NCBI RefSeq assembly: GCF_003967015.1
Contig: NZ_AP017560.1
Coordinates: forward strand, 2,418,001 to 2,482,000
Direction: 5' to 3'
Length of the DNA stretch: 64,000 nucleotides
Source: Pseudanabaena sp. ABRG5-3
GTDB taxonomy: Bacteria; Cyanobacteriota; Cyanobacteriia; Pseudanabaenales; Pseudanabaenaceae
How positions within the stretch are numbered: the first letter of the stretch is position 1; every line of letters starts with the position of its first letter. The position numbers and the translations under genes are program-made. A model generated the notes under the pieces. The model searched no databases. It was given only the letters and a program-made list of their open reading frames with translations, and had not been told where the DNA came from. Below are positions 3,647-16,146 of this stretch, one piece after another.

Positions 3647-4546
3647 ATGAAACTTCGCACGATTTTAATTTTGGTGGGACTAGCAATCGCGATCGCGCTG
3701 ATTAGTCTTTGGATGGGACAGGTTGCCTATACTTGGTTTCCGCCCCAAGCTTCCGCCGAATCAATTTTGGTAGATAATCTCTTTAGCTTTTTGGTGACAT
3801 TGGGAACTTTTATTTTCCTCGGTGTTGTTGGGACTTTGACCTATTCCGTTCTATTTCAGCGTGCCGAAAAGTACGATCTCAGTGATGGCCCTCCTATCGA
3901 AGGTAATGTCAAATTAGAAATCATTTGGACAGCAATTCCCTTTGCCCTAGTGATTTGGATTGCTGCCTATAGCTATCAAATCTATGACCAAATGTCGATT
4001 TTAGGACCAATGGATCATAGTCGTCACAGCTCAATGATGGCGGTGGCGGATGCGGCGGAAATGAGTGATGGGCGATCGGCTAATTCCGAAAATATCCAAG
4101 TTTTAGCGAGGCAATGGTCTTGGGAATTTCGTTACAACAACGGTGGAACTAACGTCAGTAGTACCGAATTGCATTTACCCAATAATCGCCGCATTAAGCT
4201 AGTTCTCCACTCTGAGGATGTGTTGCATGGCTTATATATTCCAGCTTTTCGGGTAAAGCAAGATGTCATTCCCGGACATGATATTGATTTTGAGTTTACG
4301 CCGATCCGCGAAGGCACATATCGCTTAAGGGATTCGGAATATAGCGGTACTTATTTTGCTTCTATGCAAACTGATGTGGTAGTGGAATCTCCTGAAGCCT
4401 ATCAAAAGTGGTTAGCGGATGCGGCGAAGGCTACACCTATAGCGGCTTTCAATCCTGCGGCGAGTGAGTATGCTAAACGCGCCAATGCGAGTAATTGGGC
4501 AACGGTTATTCCTGCGGCTCCGCCTGTGGTGAATTATTCTAATTGA
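3647..4546 (+). CDS. ctaC2: Alternative terminal oxidase subunit II lacking CuA ligands
   Basis: Two N-terminal membrane helices (about residues 5-25 and 45-70) precede a cupredoxin domain. The helix before that domain carries the family motif KLEIIWTAIPFA. In the C-terminal loop the usual CuA pattern C-x3-C-x3-H-x2-M reads D229, S233, F237, M240. Both cysteines and one His are therefore replaced, while His194 remains. Loss of CuA is known for the cyanobacterial ARTO enzyme and for quinol oxidases, and implies quinol rather than cytochrome c as donor. A His/Met/Ser-rich insertion around residues 120-145 (DHSRHSSMMAV) is also present. It is in an operon with ctaD and ctaE. Confidence 0.9.
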   Translation: MKLRTILILVGLAIAIALISLWMGQVAYTWFPPQASAESILVDNLFSFLVTLGTFIFLGVVGTLTYSVLFQRAEKYDLSDGPPIEGNVKLEIIWTAIPFALVIWIAAYSYQIYDQMSILGPMDHSRHSSMMAVADAAEMSDGRSANSENIQVLARQWSWEFRYNNGGTNVSSTELHLPNNRRIKLVLHSEDVLHGLYIPAFRVKQDVIPGHDIDFEFTPIREGTYRLRDSEYSGTYFASMQTDVVVESPEAYQKWLADAAKATPIAAFNPAASEYAKRANASNWATVIPAAPPVVNYSN

Positions 4547-4562
4547 CTAGGGAGGTTAACCT

Positions 4563-5090
4563 ATGGCTGATCTATTAGGAAAAAATCTCGAAGAAGATTC
4601 TCAAAAAAGAAATCCTAAACGAATTGTGCCATTAATTGCTCTTGGCGCAGTTCCTTTGGGGATTGGTATTTGTTTTATTCAAGTTCCGATCAGTTGTGCC
4701 TGTGGTAATCCTGCGTTGAGTACGACTGGGGCTTATTTGCGATCGCAGCAAGCTTATCATCTAGAAAAGAAGACTTTCAGTAAATCTTACGAGGCTCTCC
4801 AAATTGGAGAAACTCCTGTAAAAACCACTCGATATCTCTTTTCTATTGAAGTAAATAGCGATCGCGCTTATATCTATGCCACACCAAGGGAAGTCCCCAC
4901 GGATTTATTTCGGCTGGGACTGACTAAAGCTAATATCTCTGGTTTAGTTGGTGCTGTTGCCTACGATCAAAAGCGGGACACTACCGTTGATATTCTCTGT
5001 ATCGCTGAGGCTAGTAGTTTTGAGAAGCCGCCTAAGCCGATATTTAACGGTGAGAAGTTTACTTGTCCTAGTGGATTTTATGCTAGGTAG
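4563..5090 (+). CDS. Type IV pilin-like (G/H family) protein inside the oxidase operon
   Basis: The 175-aa protein has a short charged N terminus, one membrane helix (about 20-40), then YLRSQQAYHLEKKTFSKSY and a later strand-rich region (RYLFSIEV, AYIYATPRE). This resembles the cyanobacterial pilin-like G/H domain, in which a residue pair before AYY/AYH and a F-S-S/N turn are typical. The canonical prepilin cleavage site (G|FTxxE) is not visible, so it may not be a processed pilin. It lies between subunits II and I in the same orientation with an SD (GGAGG) 7 nt upstream. Its role in oxidase assembly is unknown. Confidence 0.6.
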   Translation: MADLLGKNLEEDSQKRNPKRIVPLIALGAVPLGIGICFIQVPISCACGNPALSTTGAYLRSQQAYHLEKKTFSKSYEALQIGETPVKTTRYLFSIEVNSDRAYIYATPREVPTDLFRLGLTKANISGLVGAVAYDQKRDTTVDILCIAEASSFEKPPKPIFNGEKFTCPSGFYAR

Positions 5091-5203
5091 CGATCGCGCT
5101 TTGATTAATGCAAGTCAGTTTTGCAAGTCGAATTACCAATATCTATCTGCTCTAAATACTCTCGATATTCTCAAAATCCTTAACTTTCTTAACTTTGTTT
5201 GCT

Positions 5204-6880
5204 ATGACCAATATTCCTCTTGAGGCGATCGCCAACACGACCCCACCCGAAAAGCCCGAAGACTGGCGGCGATTCTTTGGATTTAGTACCGATCATAAAG
5301 TGATTGGGATTCAATATATTGTCACTTCCTTTTTCTTCTTTCTCATTGGTGGCGTTCTCGCAATGGTAATCAGAGGTGAACTGATTACCCCTGAATCGGA
5401 TCTCGTCGATCGCGCAGTGTACAACTCCATGTTCACGATGCACGGCACGATCATGCTATTTCTCTGGACATTTCCCGTCTTGCTCGGTCTGGCTAATTAC
5501 CTAGTGCCATTAATGATTGGCGCTCGTGACATGGCTTTCCCTAGATTAAATGCAGTCGCTTTTTGGATGGTTCCCGTCTTTGGCGTGATCCTGATAGCTA
5601 GCTTCTTCATCCCTGGAGGAACTTCCCAATCGGGATGGTGGGCTTATCCGCCTGTGAGTTTGCAAAATCCTACGGGAAATCTCATTAACGGTCAATTCCT
5701 CTGGTTGCTTGCTGTTGCAATTTCGGGCGTTGCCTCGATTATGGGTGCAATCAACTTTGTGACAACCATTTTCCGAATGCGAACAACGGGAATGACTTGG
5801 TTCAAAATGCCTGTATTTGTCTGGACAGTCCTTGCCGCGCAAATTATTCAGTTATTTGGATTGCCAGCGCTCACCGCAGGCGCAGTCATGCTCTTGTCCG
5901 ACTTAACCTTTGGAACTAGCTTTTTTGATCCCGCTAAAGGTGGAGACCCCGTTCTCTTTCAACATTTTTTCTGGTTCTATTCCCATCCTGCGGTTTATGT
6001 GATTATCCTGCCCGTATTTGGAATTTTCTCGGAGATCTTCCCCGTCTATGCCCGTAAGCCGCTCTTTGGTTACAAAGTTGTGGCGGTGTCTTCCTTAATC
6101 ATTACGGGATTAAGTGGCATTGTGTGGGTGCATCATATGTTCGCCAGTGGCACACCTAGCTGGATGCGGATGCTCTTTATGGCTACCACGATGTTGATTT
6201 CTGTACCGACGGGGATCAAGGTATTTGCTTGGGTGGCGACGATCTGGGGTGGCAAAATCAAGCTGAATACAGCGATGCTCTTCGGCTTAGGTGCATTGGT
6301 AATGTTTGTCTTCGCAGGAATCACAGGCATTATGTTAGCTTCCGTTCCCGTTGATATTCATGTGAATAATACTTACTTCGTAGTCGGGCATTTCCATTAT
6401 GTAATTTACGGTGCTGTGGTCATGGGCATCTATGCAGGGCTGTACCATTGGTTCCCCAAAATGACGGGAAGAATGTATTCCGAAGGTTTAGGCAAACTCC
6501 ATTTCATCCTGACCTTTATTGGTACAAATGCCTGTTTCTTTCCGATGCATCCCCTCGGCTTACAGGGAATGCCTCGTCGCGTCGCCTCCTACGATCCTGA
6601 GTTTGCCTTCTGGAATGTGATCGCCAGTCTCGGCGGCTTTCTGTTAGGCGTATCGACAATTCCTTTCATTCTGAATATGGTTAGCTCTTGGGTACAGGGC
6701 GAAAAAGCACCGAAAAATCCTTGGCGAGCGATCGGTTTGGAATGGCTCGTTTCTTCGCCGCCATCCCATGAGAACTTTGAAGAGTTACCGATTGTAATTG
6801 CGGAACCCTACGGCTACGGCAAAGATGAACCCTTAGTTGCTAATCCTGACAAGTTGGAGGTAAATCATGCAACCAGTTAA
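5204..6880 (+). CDS. ctaD2: Alternative terminal oxidase subunit I
   Basis: Heme-copper oxidase subunit I with 12 or more membrane helices. The first helix carries the heme ligand region (MFTMHGTIMLFLW). The CuB His-Tyr pair is in SHPAVYVIILP, followed by the HH pair in WVHHMFASG, and the heme ligands are in HFHYVIYGAVVMGI. With a CuA-less subunit II it should oxidise quinol, probably in the cytoplasmic or thylakoid membrane. I chose the ATG at 5204; a TTG at 5195 would add three residues. A gap of about 110 bp separates it from the pilin-like gene, so a secondary promoter is possible. It overlaps ctaE by 14 nt. Confidence 0.93.
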   Translation: MTNIPLEAIANTTPPEKPEDWRRFFGFSTDHKVIGIQYIVTSFFFFLIGGVLAMVIRGELITPESDLVDRAVYNSMFTMHGTIMLFLWTFPVLLGLANYLVPLMIGARDMAFPRLNAVAFWMVPVFGVILIASFFIPGGTSQSGWWAYPPVSLQNPTGNLINGQFLWLLAVAISGVASIMGAINFVTTIFRMRTTGMTWFKMPVFVWTVLAAQIIQLFGLPALTAGAVMLLSDLTFGTSFFDPAKGGDPVLFQHFFWFYSHPAVYVIILPVFGIFSEIFPVYARKPLFGYKVVAVSSLIITGLSGIVWVHHMFASGTPSWMRMLFMATTMLISVPTGIKVFAWVATIWGGKIKLNTAMLFGLGALVMFVFAGITGIMLASVPVDIHVNNTYFVVGHFHYVIYGAVVMGIYAGLYHWFPKMTGRMYSEGLGKLHFILTFIGTNACFFPMHPLGLQGMPRRVASYDPEFAFWNVIASLGGFLLGVSTIPFILNMVSSWVQGEKAPKNPWRAIGLEWLVSSPPSHENFEELPIVIAEPYGYGKDEPLVANPDKLEVNHATS

Positions 6881-7481
6881 TAGTTCTGTCGGTGACAATT
6901 CAATTTTAGAAGTCACGCAAGCACCTGTCCATCAAGAGTATTCCGATAATCGGATGTTTGGCTTTGTGGTCTTTCTGCTTTCGGAAAGTGTCATCTTTTT
7001 GAGCTTTTTTGTCGCCTACATTGTCTACAAAACGACCTCGCTCAATTGGCTGCCTGAAGGCGTTACAGGTCTAGAAATTAAAGAGCCCACCATTAACACG
7101 ATTGTTCTCATATCTAGCAGTTTGACGATCTACATTGCCGAAAAATTCCTCCATAAAAAACAGCTTTGGGGCTTTCGCGCCTTCTGGCTACTAACGATCG
7201 CGATGGGTAGTTACTTCCTTTACGGTCAAGCTGTGGAATGGAGTGGTTTAACCTTTGGCTTCGGTGATGGCGTGTTTGGTGGTAGTTTCTATTTGCTGAC
7301 GGGCTTTCACGGGCTGCATGTTTTAACAGGTGTGCTGTTGCAGCTAATCATGCTGGTGCGATCGTTCCTTCCTAAAGAATATGACAAGGGTTTGTATGGC
7401 ATTGAGGCAACATCCCTATTCTGGCACTTTGTCGATGTGATTTGGATTGCATTGTTTACGTTGATTTATGTGTGGCAGTGA
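6867..7481 (+). CDS. ctaE2: Alternative terminal oxidase subunit III
   Basis: The 204-aa subunit III has five predicted membrane helices, the shorter form common in bacteria. Motifs are FGFVVFLLSESVIFLSFF at the N terminus, TGFHGLHVLTGVLLQ in the middle and LFWHFVDVIWIALFTLIYVW at the end. It starts inside the end of subunit I (14-nt overlap) behind a GGAGG, so the two are translationally coupled. It is the last gene of the oxidase operon; an inverted repeat follows at 7484-7577. Confidence 0.93.
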   Translation: MQPVNSSVGDNSILEVTQAPVHQEYSDNRMFGFVVFLLSESVIFLSFFVAYIVYKTTSLNWLPEGVTGLEIKEPTINTIVLISSSLTIYIAEKFLHKKQLWGFRAFWLLTIAMGSYFLYGQAVEWSGLTFGFGDGVFGGSFYLLTGFHGLHVLTGVLLQLIMLVRSFLPKEYDKGLYGIEATSLFWHFVDVIWIALFTLIYVWQ

Positions 7482-9224: not shown

Positions 9225-9243
9225 AGTACTAATAATTAGTACT
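9225..9243. promoter_or_regulatory. 19-bp perfect palindrome upstream of the exported small protein
   Basis: AGTACTAATAATTAGTACT is perfectly symmetric around its central A and ends about 35 bp before the start codon at 9278. The position suits an operator that controls the exported protein gene. No regulator is adjacent, so the binder is unknown. Confidence 0.5.
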
Positions 9244-9277
9244 CACTACGTCGGTCAAACACAAATCGGAGGTTATG

Positions 9278-9706
9278 ATGTATAAGCTTTTATCGGGGGC
9301 TGCTCTTGCTGCGACTGTTATCGCAGCAAACGTTCTTCCTCTTTCTGCAAATCCAACAACAAATCTCAAGACTGGTAACACTCTAAACTCAGTTTCTCCC
9401 AAGTCTAGCCTAATTGAGATCGAAGGTCGCACTTTGACTGATGTTGAAGCAGCTAAGGTTGAGGGTGAGAAGTTTTGGTTTGCAGCAGTGCCCGCTGTTG
9501 TTGGAGCTGTAGGTGGTTTTGGATTCAACACTGTTCGTAATGTTCAGAATGGCAGACCTTGGCACCAAAGTTGGGCGCAATCCACTGGCGCAGGTGCAGT
9601 TATGGCTACTTGTGGTGCTGCTAATTTTGCTACCAGAGGGGGAACTTTTATGATGTGTAGCGGTCCAAACCTTGCAGCTTCCAGTCACTTGAGAAGTCGT
9701 TGGTAA
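9278..9706 (+). CDS. Sec-exported small protein with bacteriocin-like leader segment
   Basis: 142 aa from the ATG at 9278, which sits 5 nt behind GGAGG; an adjacent ATG at 9275 is also possible. Residues 1-24 form a signal peptide ending in PLSA-N. A linker follows, then a leader-like motif RTLTDVEAAKVEGE (residues 51-64) resembling the ends of double-glycine leaders. The rest is Gly/Ala-rich and hydrophobic (FWFAAVPAVVGAVGGFGF, STGAGAVM), with two cysteines at about 112 and 127. I do not recognise the family. The two genes behind it, a C39 peptidase and a barrel protein, suggest it is a processed secreted peptide or fibre subunit. Confidence 0.6.
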   Translation: MYKLLSGAALAATVIAANVLPLSANPTTNLKTGNTLNSVSPKSSLIEIEGRTLTDVEAAKVEGEKFWFAAVPAVVGAVGGFGFNTVRNVQNGRPWHQSWAQSTGAGAVMATCGAANFATRGGTFMMCSGPNLAASSHLRSRW

Positions 9707-9753
9707 ATCTTGTTTTGTTTGCTTTTTAATGCATACAACAATATTCATAGACA

Positions 9754-9789
9754 AAAGAGGTAGATCTAAATGTTTAGATCTACCTCTTT
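9754..9789 (+). terminator. Rho-independent-like terminator after the exported protein gene
   Basis: Arms AAAGAGGTAGATCTAAA and complement pair perfectly around a TG loop and end in TTTC. It lies 48 bp after the exported protein gene and before the peptidase gene. The precursor could therefore be made in excess over the downstream genes. Confidence 0.7.
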
Positions 9790-9839
9790 CTAAATACAGC
9801 AATCAAATTGCAAAGTCACAATAAGAGATGTGTCTTTAG

Positions 9840-10505
9840 ATGGGTATATTTTTTAAGCTCAAGTTTCATACTAATCGACTAATTTGTACATCAATCCTAT
9901 TCATATTTCAAGGATTGCAATCCCTTGACGCACAAAATATTACTTCTTATCGATCGCTTCGCTATCAACAAACAATCGGACAAACAGACATATACACCTG
10001 TGGAGCCGCAGCAATTGCGACTCTGTTCACGCATTTTTATAAACAACCAGTCGGTGAACTAGAAATAGTAGAAATAGCCGAAAAGGTAATGGAAGCAAGT
10101 GGCAAAAAGCCACAAGAATCAGGATTAAATGCTTTGTCACTTAAACAAGCGCTCATAAACAAAGGCATTGATGCCGATGTTAAGGAAGTCACGTTAGAGC
10201 AACTTAAAAGATATTTTGAGCGAGGTGGTTTACCGATAGTTATTCATGTTACTATTCCTCAGCCCCATTATATTCTAGCCATTGGCATATTAGAAGACTG
10301 GTTGATTGTCTCCGATCCCACCTTGGGTAGAGGATTGTTTCCATTAGAAAGTCTCAACACCCAAAAAGGATTTAGCGGCATTGTGATAATGGCAAGACCA
10401 TCAGAAGAAGTCATCCAAGTAGCAAGGCAACAACAGCAAATATCAAAAGACTGGGCAGATGGAAGGCTACAGCGATTTAACACGATGAAGAGGAGTACTC
10501 TGTGA
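9840..10505 (+). CDS. Stand-alone exported C39-like cysteine peptidase
   Basis: 221 aa with an N-terminal signal or anchor segment (about 12-31, ending SLDA-QN) and a single C39-like papain-fold domain. The triad is visible: Cys54 in DIYTCGAAAIATL, His143 in PQPHYILAIG and Asp159 in IVSDPTLGRG. No ABC transporter domains are attached, unlike bacteriocin exporters. It resembles FapD-type periplasmic C39 proteins of the functional-amyloid (Fap) systems. Its end overlaps the start of the barrel gene by 4 nt. I infer that it cleaves the product of the gene at 9278 in the periplasm. Confidence 0.75.
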   Translation: MGIFFKLKFHTNRLICTSILFIFQGLQSLDAQNITSYRSLRYQQTIGQTDIYTCGAAAIATLFTHFYKQPVGELEIVEIAEKVMEASGKKPQESGLNALSLKQALINKGIDADVKEVTLEQLKRYFERGGLPIVIHVTIPQPHYILAIGILEDWLIVSDPTLGRGLFPLESLNTQKGFSGIVIMARPSEEVIQVARQQQQISKDWADGRLQRFNTMKRSTL

Positions 10506-11545
10506 AAAAACTTGTCCCCGCCCTATTCGTACTGTGCATCACACCCGCCGCCTACGCCCAAATTCCCATCGATCCATTACGCCGATTGCAAGAGATTCAA
10601 GGTGCATACAACTACACATTAGGGATCACCTACACCCCAAGCAGTCGTCAGGGACTAGATTTTGACACAGATATTGACGGTAATACTTTTCCCTATAGAT
10701 TTAATAGCTTCAATCAAAACGCCTCATTATCCTTATCAGGCGGCTACAGCTTTAACGAGTATTTTGGTGTAAATAGCTCCATTGACTGGGCATTTTCCTC
10801 CATTCGTGAGAATAGAGACTTTTTTGATTTTACCCGCCAAACCCTAAATAGAAGTGACTCATCTGTTGGCGGTAGCTTTGGTTTGGAATATAGAGTTGCA
10901 CCATCATCATTTTTCGATCCTCGTTTTTCTGTCAATATTGCCTATCCTTGGAATGTTTCCACTCAAGCCCAAGTTAGCCTAGTTCGAGATCCGATGATTC
11001 TTCTCGGTTCTGTTGGCTATTCACGCTCATTACAAGGCATAGGTGAAAACGTTAGCTTAGGTATCGGTACAGGATTTGTAGCTAATGATGTAATCAGCAT
11101 TAGTGGTTCTGCTGGTTATTCAATTCCCACCGATGGCGTTAGCTTACCCGTCACATCCCTATCATTTCGTACAGGCTATAACCTCGATCCTAAAGGCAAT
11201 CAAGAAATCGGCGTGAGAGCAACTTTAAGTACTAGTGGCTCAGATACAAGAATAGGCATAGGCTTAGAATTTGGTGGACGTGGAGTAATCACTGCTCCAG
11301 CAAAAGATCCTGCAACCCAATCAACACCCAACGAAGCAACAGGAGTCTCTCTAGGTACACAGCAAACTGGTATCTTACCCACCAGACCGACAACCCCAGC
11401 AAACACAACACCTTCAGATGCAACCTTAGACAAAAGACTAGAATCTCTATCTCAAAACCTATCAACACGCGAGTCTCAACTCAGAGAAATACAGCAACAA
11501 ATATTAGAAATTAAAAATGAACTTGAGGCATTAAAGAAAAAATAG
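10502..11545 (+). CDS. Outer-membrane beta-barrel protein with C-terminal coiled coil
   Basis: 347 aa from a GTG that overlaps the preceding stop (GTGA), with GAGG upstream. The signal peptide ends in AAYA-QI (residue 19). The body shows alternating, aromatic- and Gly-rich strands (YNYTLGITYTPSS, SLSLSGGYSFNEYFG, FGLEYRVAPSSFFDPRFS) like a beta-barrel of about 12 strands. A Thr/Pro-rich linker (270-305) leads to a coiled coil (about 310-347, LESLSQNLSTRESQLREIQ). It resembles FapF-like barrels, in which a coiled coil gates the pore, but here the coil is C-terminal. Likely role: export of the processed neighbour peptide. Confidence 0.65.
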   Translation: MKKLVPALFVLCITPAAYAQIPIDPLRRLQEIQGAYNYTLGITYTPSSRQGLDFDTDIDGNTFPYRFNSFNQNASLSLSGGYSFNEYFGVNSSIDWAFSSIRENRDFFDFTRQTLNRSDSSVGGSFGLEYRVAPSSFFDPRFSVNIAYPWNVSTQAQVSLVRDPMILLGSVGYSRSLQGIGENVSLGIGTGFVANDVISISGSAGYSIPTDGVSLPVTSLSFRTGYNLDPKGNQEIGVRATLSTSGSDTRIGIGLEFGGRGVITAPAKDPATQSTPNEATGVSLGTQQTGILPTRPTTPANTTPSDATLDKRLESLSQNLSTRESQLREIQQQILEIKNELEALKKK

Positions 11546-11634: not shown

Positions 11635-11952
11635 TTACCTTACCCCAGCAATAACCTGACCAATATCTTGAGGCGTAGCACCAGTTGCCAACATCGCCCT
11701 AATCAATAACTCAATAGAAACAGAAGCATCACCATTCTCAGCCTTAGCAATCCGAGGCTGACTAGAACTCATTTTAGAAGCAAGTTCACTTTGAGTCATC
11801 AGCTTTTGCCGACGTTCCTTGAGATTCTGACTAAGAGCCAGTTTGATCTCAACTAAAACAGACTCTTCAGCCGTTAACTGCAAAAAATCTGAAACCGATC
11901 CAACCTTCCAACCATTAGCCTCTAAACGCTCTCTTTTAGCTTGATCCATCAT
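11635..11952 (-). CDS. XRE-family antitoxin (HigA-like)
   Basis: 105-aa protein with a C-terminal helix-turn-helix of XRE type: MTQSELASKMSSSQPRIAKAENG, then SIELLIRAMLATGATPQDIGQVI. An N-terminal segment (about 1-50) is typical of antitoxins in HigBA/RelBE-like pairs with the toxin gene first. The toxin position 10 bp upstream is occupied by a broken HigB-like gene, so this antitoxin appears orphaned. It may still repress its own promoter or protect against related toxins. Confidence 0.8.
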   Translation of the reverse strand: MMDQAKRERLEANGWKVGSVSDFLQLTAEESVLVEIKLALSQNLKERRQKLMTQSELASKMSSSQPRIAKAENGDASVSIELLIRAMLATGATPQDIGQVIAGVR

Positions 11953-11962
11953 ATTCTCCTAC

Positions 11963-12283
11963 CTAATCAGCATCATATCTACTAAGTCTCTTTCTACAAA
12001 TATCAATCACATTTTTAGGTGTCGTTCTCGTTGATTTATTAAAAACCTCCACGATCAAAATTGCATCATCATCAATTCGATAAATGATTCTCCAGTTTTT
12101 CTCTGTATCTTGAATTCATAACTCATGACAGCGATCTCCTATACTTGGCATCGGGCAAGAATGGGGCAATCCAATAGATAAACCTTGCTGCAATTGCCTG
12201 AGCAGAACACCTGTTTCCACTCGTATTTCTTGACTGAAAGGTGGAGTTTTAACCTCACCATATCGCTCTATACCATATTTGAT
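11963..12283 (-). pseudogene. Disrupted RelE/HigB-like (phage Gp49-type) toxin
   Basis: Translating the minus strand gives the conserved toxin sequence YGEVKTPPFSQEIRVETGVL, then LPHSCPMPSIGDRCHEL. An in-frame TGA at 12116-12118 follows, and the same frame then continues with IQDTEKNWRIIYRIDDDAIL and VIDICRKRLSRYDAD to a stop at 11963-11965. The family normally has Arg at the stop position, so a CGA to TGA change is the simplest explanation. The 5' end also lacks an in-frame ATG. The gene is therefore a dead toxin upstream of an intact antitoxin. Confidence 0.8.
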
Positions 12284-12301
12284 ATATTAGCATAGATTAA
12301 T

Positions 12302-12400
12302 TTGATCACGTTTTTGGTCGGGGTATGATTGGGCGATCACATTTTGGGTGAGTGATTGGACGATCATTTTTTTGTGGGTGATTGGGCGATCGTGTTGATG
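12302..12400. repeat. HIP1-centred repeat block 2 of the TA array
   Basis: Four degenerate direct units around GATTGGGCGATC with following T/G-rich tracts. The block lies between the dead HigB-like locus and the MazE/Doc-type locus. Confidence 0.75.
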
Positions 12401-12506
12401 ATTAATGATTATCGCCAAAAAGGATTTCAAAAAGTTGAATGTTGTAACATTTGTGGTAACATCAAGCTAAAAGATGATTAAACATAATCTACTTGAGAAA
12501 ATAACC

Positions 12507-12728
12507 ATGCTTCTAAATGTCAAAAAAAGAGGAAACTCCCTAAGCGTTATCATTCCAAAAGAAATGGCAGTCAGCATGAATATTGAAGATGGTGATAATC
12601 TGTTTGCAACTAAAACTCCATCTGGATATGAGATTTCAGCATACGATCCTGATTTCGCAAAAAAGATGGAAGTAGCCCGACGGGGAATGAAGAAATATCA
12701 CAACGCATTGATTGAGTTGGCTAAATGA
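12507..12728 (+). CDS. AbrB/MazE-like antitoxin of a Doc module
   Basis: 73-aa swapped-hairpin AbrB-type antitoxin: MLLNVKKRGNSLSVIIPKEM, then NIEDGDNLFATKTPSGYEIS. This matches the putative addiction-module antidote family (TIGR02609) that pairs with Doc toxins. I chose the ATG at 12507 because the domain starts there; an in-frame ATG at 12474 would add 11 residues of poor fit. The stop overlaps the toxin start by 4 nt, so the two are coupled. It presumably neutralises and autoregulates. Confidence 0.82.
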   Translation: MLLNVKKRGNSLSVIIPKEMAVSMNIEDGDNLFATKTPSGYEISAYDPDFAKKMEVARRGMKKYHNALIELAK

Positions 12729-13132
12729 TCGAACCTTATTGGCTTGAAACTCATGACGTTTGCGCTATACATAATGAAATTATCGCAGAGTCGGGTGGCG
12801 CTGCGGGAATTTTGAATGAAGGTGCTTTGGAATCAACTTTATTCAAGCCCAGAAATATCTATCATTACGAAGAAGTTGTAACTTTATACAAACTAGCTGC
12901 ATCTTACGGCTATGGGCTAGTAAAAAATCATTGTTTTGTTGATGGTAATAAGAGAATTGCCCTGATCGCTGTTTATACATTCTTAGCAATTAATGGAATT
13001 GAACTTATAGCATCAGAGACTGATGCAGCAATCTTTTTTCTAGAATTAGCCGCAAGTTTTGGAAAACAAGAAGAAGATATGAATAGACTAGCAAATTGGC
13101 TGCAAATTAATAGCGAACCTATTAACGACTAG
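12725..13132 (+). CDS. doc: Doc/Fic-family toxin (death-on-curing)
   Basis: 135-aa Fic/Doc protein. The motif HCFVDGNKRIAL matches HxFx(D/N)GNKR, the phosphate-binding and catalytic loop. Family features upstream include IHNEIIAESGGAAGILNEGALES. Doc toxins phosphorylate elongation factor Tu in the characterised P1 case; that activity here is inferred. It overlaps its antitoxin gene by 4 nt. All motif residues are present, so it looks functional. Confidence 0.88.
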   Translation: MIEPYWLETHDVCAIHNEIIAESGGAAGILNEGALESTLFKPRNIYHYEEVVTLYKLAASYGYGLVKNHCFVDGNKRIALIAVYTFLAINGIELIASETDAAIFFLELAASFGKQEEDMNRLANWLQINSEPIND

Positions 13133-13200
13133 TGCGATCGTGTTGTTTTTAAGTGAGTGATTGGGCGATCGCGTTTTTGGTGATTGATTGGGCGATATGC
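13133..13200. repeat. HIP1-centred repeat block 3 of the TA array
   Basis: Three units: GTGCGATCGTGTTGTTTTTA, TTGGGCGATCGCGTTTTTGG and a truncated TTGGGCGAT. They lie between the Doc locus and the convergent ParE/RelE-like locus. Confidence 0.75.
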
Positions 13201-13210
13201 AAAAACAAAC

Positions 13211-13540
13211 TTAACCCTTCACCCTTTCTTTCGCCTTCTTATAAGCAGGATCGTGAATATCGAAACTAATCACCCTTACCCTTTTCGGCGCAGGTTTTTC
13301 AAAAATTCGATAGACCAGTCTATATTCCGTATCATCAAAGGGAATCTCCAAAGCATGATAACCACGCAAATCACCCTTTAACTTATGACAACTCAAAATC
13401 CCTCCAGTATCAGGACATGACTGCAAAATCGGCTTAAATAACCCCTCAAAATCAGTTCTCAAAATCATCGGCAAAATTGGCAAATCTTCTGATATCACAA
13501 GTGGATGCACATGCAAAAAATACTTAGCGCGTATAGCCAC
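13211..13540 (-). CDS. RelE/ParE-like type II toxin
   Basis: 109-aa protein with the RelE/ParE fold pattern: LKGDLRGYHALEIPFDDTEY followed by RLVYRIFEKPAPKRVRVISF and a basic C terminus (AYKKAKERVKG). RelE-like toxins act on ribosome-bound mRNA and ParE-like ones on gyrase; I cannot tell which applies. The antitoxin gene lies upstream and overlaps it by 17 nt, the normal antitoxin-first order. It looks intact. Confidence 0.78.
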   Translation of the reverse strand: MAIRAKYFLHVHPLVISEDLPILPMILRTDFEGLFKPILQSCPDTGGILSCHKLKGDLRGYHALEIPFDDTEYRLVYRIFEKPAPKRVRVISFDIHDPAYKKAKERVKG

Positions 13541-13805
13541 GCAGCTTAATCTCCCTATTCACCTGTTCCAAATCAAACTCCTCATCTAGAGTTCCCATCG
13601 TCACCCACTCATCTTCTTTAATAGGCTTAGCAATGCGCTCAATTGCCTTAGACTCAGCAGAACTCAAAAACAATCGATTTTCTCTTTGTAACTTCTCCGA
13701 GATCGCTTCACGCAACCAATTCATCCGCCCCTGTGAGGGCAAACTATTAAAAACATCTGAGGGCAAAGACACTGTGACGCGCTTAGTTATGCTTTTTGCT
13801 TTCAC
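13524..13805 (-). CDS. Ribbon-helix-helix-type antitoxin
   Basis: 93 aa; the N terminus KSITKRVTVSLPSDVFNSL looks like a ribbon-helix-helix strand and first helix. A helical region (NWLREAISEKLQRENRLFLS) follows, then an acidic C-terminal tail (EDEWVTMGTLDEEFDLEQ) that would wrap the toxin. It overlaps the downstream RelE/ParE-like gene by 17 nt. Autorepression is expected. Confidence 0.72.
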   Translation of the reverse strand: MKAKSITKRVTVSLPSDVFNSLPSQGRMNWLREAISEKLQRENRLFLSSAESKAIERIAKPIKEDEWVTMGTLDEEFDLEQVNREIKLRGYTR

Positions 13806-13861
13806 TTAAGTACCTCTTCCAATCAATCCTCTAGAATATTTTATCCTAGTGTAATAACTAT

Positions 13862-13910
13862 TGGCGATCGCGTTTTTGTTAGGGGATGGTTAGGCGATCG
13901 CGTTGGTAAT
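13862..13910. repeat. HIP1-centred repeat block 4 of the TA array
   Basis: Two units, GGCGATCGCGTTTTTGTTAG and AGGCGATCGCGTTGG, in direct orientation between the third TA locus and the HsdR_N-like nuclease gene. Confidence 0.7.
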
Positions 13911-13959
13911 TTTGTTTTTGCACTAATATTAAGATTATTACTTCTACATACAATTCATC

Positions 13960-14580
13960 ATGGCTCAGGCGATCGCAGCAAAAGATGTAACGCTAAGGGA
14001 ATTAAAGCAAAATTTTGGGCTTCAGATATCTCAAGATGCATCTTTTTTTGATGAATGGTTGAATGGTTTTACACCATTAAGTGAAGAAGATCACCATTTA
14101 TTAGATCGGGTGAAAGCTAATTTTCTAGAATTGATGGAAGATCCACCAATGTTAGAGAATACAGTGAAAATGGTAGTACTTGCACCATTGTTAGATCTCG
14201 CTGGCTTTTATCACAAGCCATTTCGGATTGAGACAGAAACAGCTATAGCATTAGAAATGAAAGATGAAGAAGCAATAATTCGGGGGCGAATCGATGTATT
14301 GGTGATCAAAAATCAGCTTTGGTTATTAGTCATTGAATCAAAACGAAGTGATTTTGCAGTAACAAGAGCGATTCCACAAGCTTTAGCTTATATGTTGAGT
14401 AATACGGAAACTGTACAACCAACATTTGGCATGATTACTAATGGGAATGAATTTTTATTTTTGAAAACTTCACAAAATGAGTATGCTAATTCACGGCTAT
14501 TTTCTTTGGTAAACCCTAATAATGAACTTTATGAAGTATTACAAATACTAAAACATCTAGGCTCAAAAATATGTATGTAA
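13960..14580 (+). CDS. HsdR N-terminal-like restriction nuclease domain protein
   Basis: 206 aa. The core resembles the nuclease domain of type I restriction R subunits: GRIDVLVIKNQLWLLVIESK carries the Asp and the E-x-K of a PD-(D/E)XK site. It is followed by IPQALAYMLSNTE and a late strand (TFGMITNGNEFLFLK). There is no helicase part and no HsdM or HsdS nearby, so this is a stand-alone nuclease domain as often seen in cyanobacteria. It sits at the end of the TA array, which suits a defence or mobile-island role. Target unknown. Confidence 0.75.
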   Translation: MAQAIAAKDVTLRELKQNFGLQISQDASFFDEWLNGFTPLSEEDHHLLDRVKANFLELMEDPPMLENTVKMVVLAPLLDLAGFYHKPFRIETETAIALEMKDEEAIIRGRIDVLVIKNQLWLLVIESKRSDFAVTRAIPQALAYMLSNTETVQPTFGMITNGNEFLFLKTSQNEYANSRLFSLVNPNNELYEVLQILKHLGSKICM

Positions 14581-14589
14581 GCTTTGCGA

Positions 14590-16146
14590 TTAAATCAAAT
14601 CACCTAATAAACTTGATACTTCACCTTGCATATTAGTACGGTTATCGTCGTAAAGCATTAATGTATCTAGCTTTTTATGACGCGAGAGTTTTTGAACTTT
14701 GCGAACATTACCATTAGTAGCATCAAGGGCAGCCGTGATCGCCGAGTGACGAATACGGTGGGGAGACATTTTTTTGGTGATTCCTGAGTCTCGCGCCAGT
14801 TGATCGACAATTTGGTAAATTGCCGTACCAGTCAGTCTATGTCCTTGATTGACGGGATCGAGAGACTGAAATAATGGGCGATCGCTACTTTTTGTCTTAA
14901 GTTGAGATAGCCAGTCTTGAATTGCGTTAGCAGTTCCTATACTAAGACTAATGAGACTCTTTTGAGAGCCACGTCCCTTGCCTAAAATTTGCAGCGATCG
15001 CGCTTCATAGTCAAAATCACCGATATTCGCGCTAACGACTTCATTGCGACGCAGAGCATTGTCCCAAAGCAGTCTCAAAATTGCGAAATCGCGTTTTCCC
15101 TTGACAGTAGTTCTATCTATTTTTAAGAGCATCGTGCGGATACCATCGGGCTTAATCCCTGTCGTATCGCGATAGGTTTGGACTGCCTCAGTTTGGACAT
15201 CATCGAGATTCCAATTGCATTTACCTAGTTTGGCGGCAAAATTTACTAAGGATTTGAGAGCCGATAGACGACGGTTAATTGTCGATTCTTTTAATCCTTG
15301 AGTAATCAGATCTGACTTGTAGCGCAGGGCGATCGCGATCGCCTCAAAACGATTTAACTGCAAAAACTGGGCAATTACTGTCTCAGTGGGCTTCTGTCCA
15401 TAGGCAGCCAGAAAAAAGTAACGTAAATCCTTCTCATAGGCGCGTCTAGTGTTGAGACTCCGTTTATCTGCGAGGAGAGAAGTGAGAATGTCTGGATTAA
15501 ATCCTGTCAAAGCATAGGGAATTGCACTAGAAACAGCACTCAGTTGAGTCTTATCAGTATCTAAATAAGTCCCAGTTTGATTCTCAGATTCTAAATTAGA
15601 TACAGGCGATAGTCTTAATTGAGACTCATCAGTCTCAATTATAGTCTTATTAAGTGTCTCAAAATCTTGATTTAAGGCATGATTTAAGGCATATTTTTCT
15701 TGGCTAAATCGCAACCGTTCAGGTGCGATCGCCTCAGTAATACCCGCATTAGTGACTGCTCGTTTGACAATGCCATAGATAGCGGTTCCCGTCAGCCTAT
15801 GCCCATATTTAGCGCGATCTAGGGATATAAATAGTGGCGTTGGAGTATCTTCATCCTCGTTAGGAAGATGCGTTAAATTGAGCCAGTCCTGTAATGCGGT
15901 GGCTGTGTCTAAACTGAGACTAATAATTTCCTTTGGGTTTAATTGCCCCTGCCGCTTATAGCGTTTATCAACCCGTAGCGATCGCCCCTCACAATCGACA
16001 TCATTAATATTAATCGCAGCAACCTGCTGTCTTTTTAGAGAATTCTCGATGAGTAATCGCAAAATTGCATAATCACGCTGACCTGCCAATGTATCGCGAT
16101 CGCAAGCCCTAAGAAGTCGCTCTGATAAGTCGCTCTGTAAGGTCAT
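14590..16146 (-). CDS. Tyrosine recombinase with duplicated, degenerate N-terminal catalytic-like domain
   Basis: 518 aa. The C-terminal half is a complete XerC/D-like enzyme: Arg366 (NALRRNEV), Lys in GKGRG, His463 and Arg466 (SPHRIRHS), His490 (SRHKKL) and Tyr499 (MLYDDNR). A core-binding domain (about 215-330) precedes it. Residues 1-150 repeat the front of the catalytic domain (RDYAILRLLIENSLKRQQV, GHRLTGTAIYGIV) but have Lys for the first Arg and APERLRFS for the HxxR box, then end. The N-terminal copy is thus non-catalytic. Two small membrane protein genes lie 13 and about 200 bp upstream in the same orientation. Confidence 0.85.
   Translation of the reverse strand: MTLQSDLSERLLRACDRDTLAGQRDYAILRLLIENSLKRQQVAAININDVDCEGRSLRVDKRYKRQGQLNPKEIISLSLDTATALQDWLNLTHLPNEDEDTPTPLFISLDRAKYGHRLTGTAIYGIVKRAVTNAGITEAIAPERLRFSQEKYALNHALNQDFETLNKTIIETDESQLRLSPVSNLESENQTGTYLDTDKTQLSAVSSAIPYALTGFNPDILTSLLADKRSLNTRRAYEKDLRYFFLAAYGQKPTETVIAQFLQLNRFEAIAIALRYKSDLITQGLKESTINRRLSALKSLVNFAAKLGKCNWNLDDVQTEAVQTYRDTTGIKPDGIRTMLLKIDRTTVKGKRDFAILRLLWDNALRRNEVVSANIGDFDYEARSLQILGKGRGSQKSLISLSIGTANAIQDWLSQLKTKSSDRPLFQSLDPVNQGHRLTGTAIYQIVDQLARDSGITKKMSPHRIRHSAITAALDATNGNVRKVQKLSRHKKLDTLMLYDDNRTNMQGEVSSLLGDLI

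Follow-up and report, generated by a model that had tools for sequence, protein, structure and literature searches.

How does a peptide that carries both a Sec-type signal and a bacteriocin-like leader leave the cell when no ABC transporter is encoded beside it? The question is raised by a three-gene locus of the cyanobacterium Pseudanabaena sp. ABRG5-3 in the window that we analysed, i.e. a stretch of 64,000 nucleotides (contig NZ_AP017560.1, positions 2,418,001 to 2,482,000 of the forward strand), where a first-pass annotation made from the letters alone had proposed a new secretion module composed of an exported peptide, a C39 peptidase and a coiled-coil barrel. The features concerned are, in window coordinates:

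9275..9706, plus strand, precursor peptide gene, 143 amino acids (open reading frame call; the same-genus homologue keeps the leader and alters the core)
9434..9469, plus strand, leader motif LTDVEAAKVEGE, precursor residues 54-65 (register L-12, E-8, A-7, V-4, G-2, E-1)
9470..9703, plus strand, core, precursor residues 66-143, Gly/Ala-rich with two Cys
9840..10505, plus strand, stand-alone C39 peptidase gene, 221 amino acids (Pfam Peptidase_C39, E 3.1e-11)
10502..11545, plus strand, outer-membrane beta-barrel gene, 347 amino acids (Pfam OMP_b-brl, E 8.4e-8)

We report that these genes probably constitute a Sec-dependent, two-leader peptide secretion module, the most likely cargo being a bacteriocin or toxin. 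As read from sequence, gene order and predicted folds, the precursor would cross the inner membrane via Sec and lose its signal peptide, the stand-alone periplasmic C39 peptidase would recognise the second, double-glycine-type leader and cut at its end, and the freed Gly/Ala-rich core would exit through a FapF-like 12-stranded barrel to act against neighbouring bacteria, with a putative immunity protein encoded beside it in most non-cyanobacterial loci. The computed support comprises the co-occurrence of the genes, a conserved leader set against a variable core, the conservation of the catalytic residues, the predicted folds, linked membrane genes and one core with a toxin domain. We hold the predicted secretion mechanism to be highly probable and an antibacterial role of the family, as suggested by sequence comparison, to be rather likely; for the window's own peptide such a role is evenly balanced, the lower figure reflecting that no immunity candidate adjoins it.

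The three open reading frames (ORFs) and the 4-nucleotide overlap given in the first-pass annotation were recovered by translation: the barrel gene begins with a GTG at 10502, within the end of the C39 gene (10505). The precursor has two in-frame ATG codons (9275 and 9278) and no convincing Pfam match. A Pfam scan of the window ORFs around the trio revealed an ABC (ATP-binding cassette) transporter or HlyD protein in none of the 19, there is no ATPase gene within the trio, and the genome (G000) carries a single copy of the module. The precursor is laid out as a Sec-like signal (approximately residues 1-25, ending ...LPLSA-NPTT, as judged by eye and a simple rule), a linker, the double-glycine-type leader and a variable core. 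In the window this core comprises 78 amino acids with 2 Cys, 14% Gly and 17% Ala, and it resembles a core from a Prochloron metagenome-assembled genome (MAG; E 1.7e-6). The leader LTDVEAAKVEGE has hydrophobic residues at -4, -7 and -12 and Gly at -2, as double-glycine leaders do. The signal-like N-terminus, the bacteriocin-like leader end and the Gly/Ala-rich core with two Cys had all been noted from the letters, and all are borne out. The cut had been placed after Gly63; the leader end stands, while the canonical register moves the residue, so that cleavage may occur one position later, after Glu65 (Glu64 in the earlier numbering).

Is the leader more than a chance resemblance? A 12-position matrix built from 14 leaders was applied to the six-frame ORFs of 50 loci, 2,854 in all, using a threshold of 12 bits that was chosen after a first matrix run had been seen. 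An ORF upstream of the C39 gene and on its strand reached the threshold in 20 of the 36 held-out loci (496 ORFs examined), and the 1,493 other ORFs did so in 2/36 loci, both times inside the C39 gene; among shuffled ORFs the figure was 3/2,854. The held-out loci are not fully independent, since the 50 include near-duplicates (L005/L031/L148; L163/L165/L166/L167; L141/L153). In leave-one-out runs 12 of the 14 left-out leaders lay on the best ORF of their locus; L005 was missed, and at L160, which carries four precursors, another of these came first. When the matrix was built without its own leader, the window precursor was still the top ORF of its locus (32.4 bits vs 11.0 for the next), which, given how rarely shuffled ORFs reach 12 bits, places it above chance.

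Across 32 precursors, mean pairwise identity drops from 0.52 for the leader to 0.17 for the first 12 core residues and 0.10 for the last 12; the 12 residues that precede the leader average 0.23. These precursors were picked by leader score, which inflates the leader identity, and the held-out matrix test is therefore the fair one. Gly-2 is present in 32/32 and Leu-7 in 30/32, and the family consensus is about LP-G-E-LSD-EL--VEGE. The signal-peptide rule accepted 26/32; one miss lies at a contig end and the other five look signal-like by eye. Sequences outside the 32 are those of L141 (6961), L146 (4305), L158, L163, L165 and L167, and also of L139, L168 (2867), L150, L143 and L145. A conserved leader with a variable core, which the first-pass annotation had expected of homologues, is thus what we found.

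These data bear on the simplest alternative, namely that the genes are unrelated neighbours, the precursor being an ordinary exported protein with a coincidental leader-like motif. The rarity of the trio (2/26 sampled genomes of the genus and 2/386 sampled cyanobacterial genomes) would suit it, but it is contradicted by the strand and position bias of the held-out leader test and by a gene order that recurs across phyla, and we consider it extremely improbable.

Turning to the spread of the module, the co-occurrence of the three genes elsewhere, on which the original proposal had been made to depend, was found in other genomes. The trio is present in a second genome of the genus (G003); in a sample of 97 genomes it is confined to G000 and G003. 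Compared with the window, the C39 peptidase of G003 is 72% identical, the barrel 82% and the precursor 39% overall, and this precursor keeps the leader (RSLTDAEAAKVEGE) with a changed core. In a profile search of the 386 cyanobacterial genomes 68 matched; 66 of the 68 score at most 63.3 bits and were not counted as members, because the low-score places listed lie, with one exception (368 amino acids), in frames of >700 amino acids, the length to be expected of C39-ABC transporters. Queried with the precursor alone, the 386 genomes gave no match beyond its own genome, so the C39 profile was needed to detect relatives. Scanning genome contigs with six C39 sequences gave 42 loci, of which 27 (L011-L037, E ≤7e-19, some of them fragments) were taken as members; these belong to Cyanobacteria, Thermaceae, Bipolaricaulota/Acetothermia, one unclassified MAG and two MAGs labelled Bacillota. 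The scan relied on one 9-residue pattern, and members lacking it were missed. A C39 match at E ≤1e-20 is present in 20/111 Deinococcota genomes and in 18/100 genomes of the Bipolaricaulota phylum, so that relatives are known from Cyanobacteria and both of these; in two MAGs labelled Bacillota (L174, L175) there are relatives and a precursor was not found. Among plasmid records (tblastn) similar arrangements occur in Deinococcus and Thermus among the matches listed (20 of 54 records), where 3/7 of the Enterococcus rows listed carry the annotation of a peptide cleavage/export ABC transporter. Viral contigs contained no C39 relative, the G003 core had no match among plasmids, and a search for further precursors in seven cyanobacterial genomes gave nothing better than E 0.015 outside the known loci. 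Wider stretches around C39 were extracted for 40 places.

What, then, could release the core? The stand-alone C39-like peptidase with Cys54, His143 and Asp159 had been recognised from the sequence, and the Pfam match and residue conservation uphold it: in 22 aligned members Cys54, His143, Asp159 and Gln48 are invariant, and in 35 members Cys54, His143 and Gln48 remain so with Asp159 in at least 90%. The protein has the papain-like fold and the catalytic Cys/His/Asp plus Gln of peptidase family C39; its model (pLDDT, predicted local distance difference test, 92.3) matches the peptidase domains of PCAT1 and ComA as well as the double-glycine protease 6mpz, which is also the best PDB sequence match of the C39 profile (E 1.4e-13). 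A periplasmic location is predicted from an N-terminal signal- or anchor-like helix. The NCBIfam model C39_FapD matches the window protein at E 6.1e-12, far under its cut-off (45.3 bits vs 330; 44.7 in the genome search). In hhalign the C39 profile also aligns, at E 1.3e-21, with the C39 peptidase encoded at a Fap-like locus of Croceicoccus, itself a FapD match at 1.1e-45, and matches the C39 peptidase of the haemocin operon discussed below. In a tree, with a midpoint root for drawing only and a very long HmcC branch, the seven cyanobacterial sequences form one group (99/97) and the Fap-like and haemocin peptidases fall outside the family (95/92). Some family C39 genes are in pieces (L140, L153, L162, and L160 at 4668-5108 and 6874-7104), and this may reflect repeated loss of the module.

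The proposed exit is the barrel, whose AlphaFold2 model (pLDDT 84.2) has 12 strands (residues 35-262) and one further feature:

11417..11539, plus strand, C-terminal predicted helix/coiled coil, barrel residues 306-346 (AlphaFold2 model; optional in the family)

The coiled coil of the original description is thus borne out for the window and shared by some cyanobacterial barrels; as a general part it fails, being absent from other cyanobacterial barrels and from the Deinococcota rows. Foldseek ranks FapF first for the model (E 8.8e-11, TM (template modelling) score 0.49 by query length), and a sequence-profile search of the PDB also puts FapF on top, with an E of 1.4e-4 that sums two short segments, each of them non-significant by itself. 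In VIA-align 2 FapF (Z 21.2) ties with the porins KdgM and NanC (Z 21.4), so the fold alone does not single out FapF. The profile probability against the FapF-like protein of the Croceicoccus locus is 37%. As another candidate relative, HmcD of the haemocin operon was rejected (no clear link, hhalign probability 6%). Downstream of remote C39 genes and leader-bearing precursors, two loci of the Bipolaricaulota phylum (L163, L168) encode a protein with similar DPV and FVAN motifs, as seen by eye.

As to the cargo, 32 cores contain 115 GxxxG motifs compared with 65.7 +/- 6.5 in shuffles (0/300 shuffles as high); core lengths are 34-186 amino acids with one outlier of 14, and all seven cyanobacterial cores have two Cys. 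The precursor of Deinococcus sp. NW-56 carries the toxin domain Ntox33 (E 3.7e-23). Weaker matches among the 37 precursors scanned include Bacteriocin_IIc in one (E 0.0015), a few glycine-zipper models, and a lactobin A/cerein 7B model in four (best E 0.019). Outside Cyanobacteria a small membrane ORF on the same strand lies between precursor and C39 gene in 25/30 loci and on the opposite strand in 1/30; the 30 are all non-cyanobacterial loci with a seen leader, near-duplicates and L142 with its 3.2-kb gap included, and a first, narrower count gave 18/23 and 1/23, in both cases by a simple hydropathy rule. The small membrane protein is likely an immunity protein. Five loci have no such ORF (L004, L162, L166, L146, L150). 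At L004 a DUF4279 protein without a predicted membrane helix takes its place. In Deinococcus sp. NW-56 the neighbour of the Ntox33 precursor is a DUF4279 protein (E 1.8e-16) without predicted membrane helix; pairing an enzymatic core with a soluble protein, and Gly-zipper cores with proteins of the membrane, would follow the usual toxin/immunity logic. One linked small membrane ORF is a CPBP/Rce1-type protease.

Several observations weigh against a bacteriocin- or toxin-exporting module. The residue at -1 is Glu in the window, not the Gly or Ala of GG/GA sites, and likewise Glu in 22/32 precursors. No ORF reaches 12 bits in 16 of the 36 held-out loci; several of these lie at contig ends and weaker forms are present in L143, L145, L150 and L164, while neither applies to L159, L161, L173, L174 and L175. 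A strong toxin-domain match was obtained for 1/37 precursors. The match of the barrel to FapF in the PDB is weak, its fold ties with KdgM and NanC, and the NCBIfam FapF model does not match the window barrel even at E 1, so the export role of the barrel rests mainly on gene linkage. Finally, none of the seven cyanobacterial loci, the window included, has a small membrane or immunity ORF between precursor and C39 gene, the interval to which the search was limited, and the bacteriocin reading is therefore weaker for the window.

The last point is equally what would be expected if the locus secreted a surface fibre or matrix, i.e. a Fap-like amyloid or Fil-like pilus in another phylum, with cores that assemble outside the cell and do not kill. 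The peptidase and barrel are Fap-like, the C39 and barrel proteins of Fap loci match the NCBIfam putative-pilus models FilB and FilC, and several cyanobacterial cores are homologous to one another. In contrast, among 90 ORFs of at least 100 amino acids from the seven cyanobacterial loci none is strongly N/Q-rich (highest 0.18), and a simple scan, made without a FapB/FapC model search, revealed no repeated G[NQ]-type motifs in them; mean N+Q is 5% in the cores and 10% in the window core, and the Ntox33 precursor and the linked membrane proteins of other phyla argue in the same direction. We regard fibre secretion as unlikely.

Neighbouring regulatory genes raise a further alternative, in which the processed core is a pheromone sensed by the producer or its kin. 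An annotated histidine kinase and response regulator adjoin the locus in Deinococcus sp. NW-56, as does a response regulator in Deinococcus sp. D7000, and five of the seven cyanobacterial loci have homologous STAND/NB-ARC-type genes divergent from the precursor:

L012, 1-585, minus strand, STAND/NB-ARC-type gene
L013, 2777-4150, minus strand, STAND/NB-ARC-type gene
L016, 2424-3752, minus strand, STAND/NB-ARC-type gene
L020, 1907-3235, minus strand, STAND/NB-ARC-type gene
L037, 3017-3934, minus strand, STAND/NB-ARC-type gene

Both of the two that were scanned match NB-ARC/ATPase_2, and these genes are possible regulators. Cores of 34-186 residues are nevertheless long for pheromones, strongly variable and in one case equipped with a toxin domain, and the STAND gene is missing from the window and from L011, which makes peptide signalling quite improbable. 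Export of a bacteriocin- or toxin-like peptide by the module is accordingly the reading that we retain; the original secretion-module proposal is supported overall, the genes co-occurring elsewhere and the leader motif being conserved in homologues.

Is such a system new? In Pseudomonas, FapD is a periplasmic C39 peptidase whose catalytic Cys is required for FapC secretion, and whose target is called unclear (PMC5557850); FapF is a trimeric 12-stranded barrel. According to a 2018 review (PMC6173800), five additional phyla have homologues of fapD and fapF located together; the part concerned names no cargo. Common to Fap and, by prediction, the window are a C39 peptidase that stands alone and lies outside the cytoplasm and an outer-membrane barrel of 12 strands. 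They differ in that the module's cargo bears a leader and has a Gly-zipper or toxin-domain core, in most non-cyanobacterial loci with a membrane protein encoded next to it, and in that the coiled coil is N-terminal and periplasmic in FapF but C-terminal and optional in the module. The earlier comparison with Fap therefore stands for the C39 profile match and for FapF as top hit by Foldseek and, weakly, by PDB profile; it does not hold for the position and generality of the coiled coil. Fap-like plasmid loci are also under the NCBIfam cut-offs, but score 135-156 bits for FapD vs the window's 45.3.

A second likeness is haemocin (hmc) of Avibacterium paragallinarum plasmid p250 (NC_005245.1), whose bacteriocin precursor has a signal-like N-terminus and a double-glycine leader (LSQKEMSEVKGG) as in the module; with the family's matrix this leader scores above 200/200 shuffles. 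The p250 genes encode a C39 peptidase, HmcD, an AAA-family ATPase and an immunity protein in an order that differs from that of the module, and HmcD has no clear relation to the barrel. The two-step leader without ABC transporter, called unusual in the first-pass annotation, is thus seen in the window and is not unique to it, being present also in the haemocin operon. By eye, haemocin (...GFRINGIRRP) and three cyanobacterial cores (...NGQ(R/K)ING(I/L)RVF(V/T)R) share a C-terminal motif (L008 3626-3928; L011 4364-4777; L154 756-1238; L172 3324-3947). FilB/FilC (NCBIfam NF050078 and NF050079, known by model name only) is another pair of C39 and outer-membrane-type proteins; Fap-like loci match both models, and the window proteins match neither at E ≤1. 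Class II microcins and double-glycine bacteriocins share the leader register, the C39 fold, small immunity proteins (outside Cyanobacteria) and Gly-rich cores, according to parts of PMC10233263 and PMC3140520; they use a C39-ABC transporter, whereas the window has a Sec-like signal before the leader and C39 alone in a 221-residue frame. The queries named in the cyanobacterial survey, in the relevant part of PMC3140520, were C39-ABC, HlyD and LanM. Ntox33 is listed in a section of PMC3482391 among polymorphic-toxin domains, with a note on export of the type II secretion system kind. Our search of the PMC literature, with subscription papers, preprints and supplements outside it, found no description of such cargo. 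In view of FapD/FapF, haemocin, FilB/FilC and the reported fapD/fapF homologues the machinery is not categorically new; what is new is the probable cargo class: bacteriocin- or toxin-like peptides that bear a leader and often have an immunity partner.

GG sites in leader-like context were also noticed in Fap-like loci of Croceicoccus, Photobacterium and Cupriavidus (e.g. LTDDEMSSLRGG, LSEEVLARQRGG, VASSKLDDVRGG). In three such loci, FapE-like proteins have, by eye, GG before a mature-looking region (L009 LSEEVLARQRGG, L188 LTDDEMSSLRGG, L010 LEESRGG). The GG-bearing proteins are:

L009, 4582-5298
L188, 5591-6100
L010, 3393-3881, 4359-5729 and 5838-7310

As family leaders the FapE-like sites were rejected, since 26, 52 and 154 of 200 shuffles equalled the best site, and the L010 site is not the best-scoring one of its protein; for the GG sites of the Fap-like loci against the family's matrix, 11 to 155 of 200 shuffles were as high. 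They serve as a lead on the FapD substrate.

Between the precursor and C39 genes the window holds one more element:

9754..9789, plus strand, perfect 17-bp inverted repeat

The intergenic region 9707-9839 folds with z = -5.8 (0/200 shuffles equally stable), and a simple terminator scan did not pick up the hairpin. It is a possible attenuator or processing site, and so strong a hairpin may give a high ratio of precursor to machinery. Upstream of the trio are genes for cytochrome oxidase subunits and a GMC oxidoreductase; at 3647-7481 lie COX2, COX1 and COX3, the first two of them separated by an inserted gene for a Pilin_GH-type protein (4563-5090, E 5e-14). Downstream an island (11635-16146) carries an HTH_3 gene, a MazE-like and Fic/Doc pair (12474-13132), a small gene pair without Pfam match (13211-13805), an HSDR_N-like protein (13960-14580) and a 518-residue protein with two phage-integrase stretches.

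What the module means depends on how far its likeness to Fap extends. We propose tentatively, and just short of an even chance, that machinery of the FapD/FapF type serves two-membrane bacteria as a general, Sec-dependent route by which leader-bearing polypeptides are secreted. If true, in its widest form this route would export bacteriocins and Ntox33-type polymorphic-toxin domains together with immunity, Fap amyloid and haemocin would be branches of it, and the substrate signal of FapD would be a double-glycine-type leader. With a definite class of probable cargo and a leader motif to look for, the cargo of the non-proteobacterial fapD/fapF homologues and the target of FapD become directly testable. 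The leader motif could be used for genome mining, and the module would give Cyanobacteria, the Bipolaricaulota phylum and thermophilic Deinococcota a route for bacteriocin or toxin export that needs no ABC transporter, and possibly a further delivery path for polymorphic-toxin domains.

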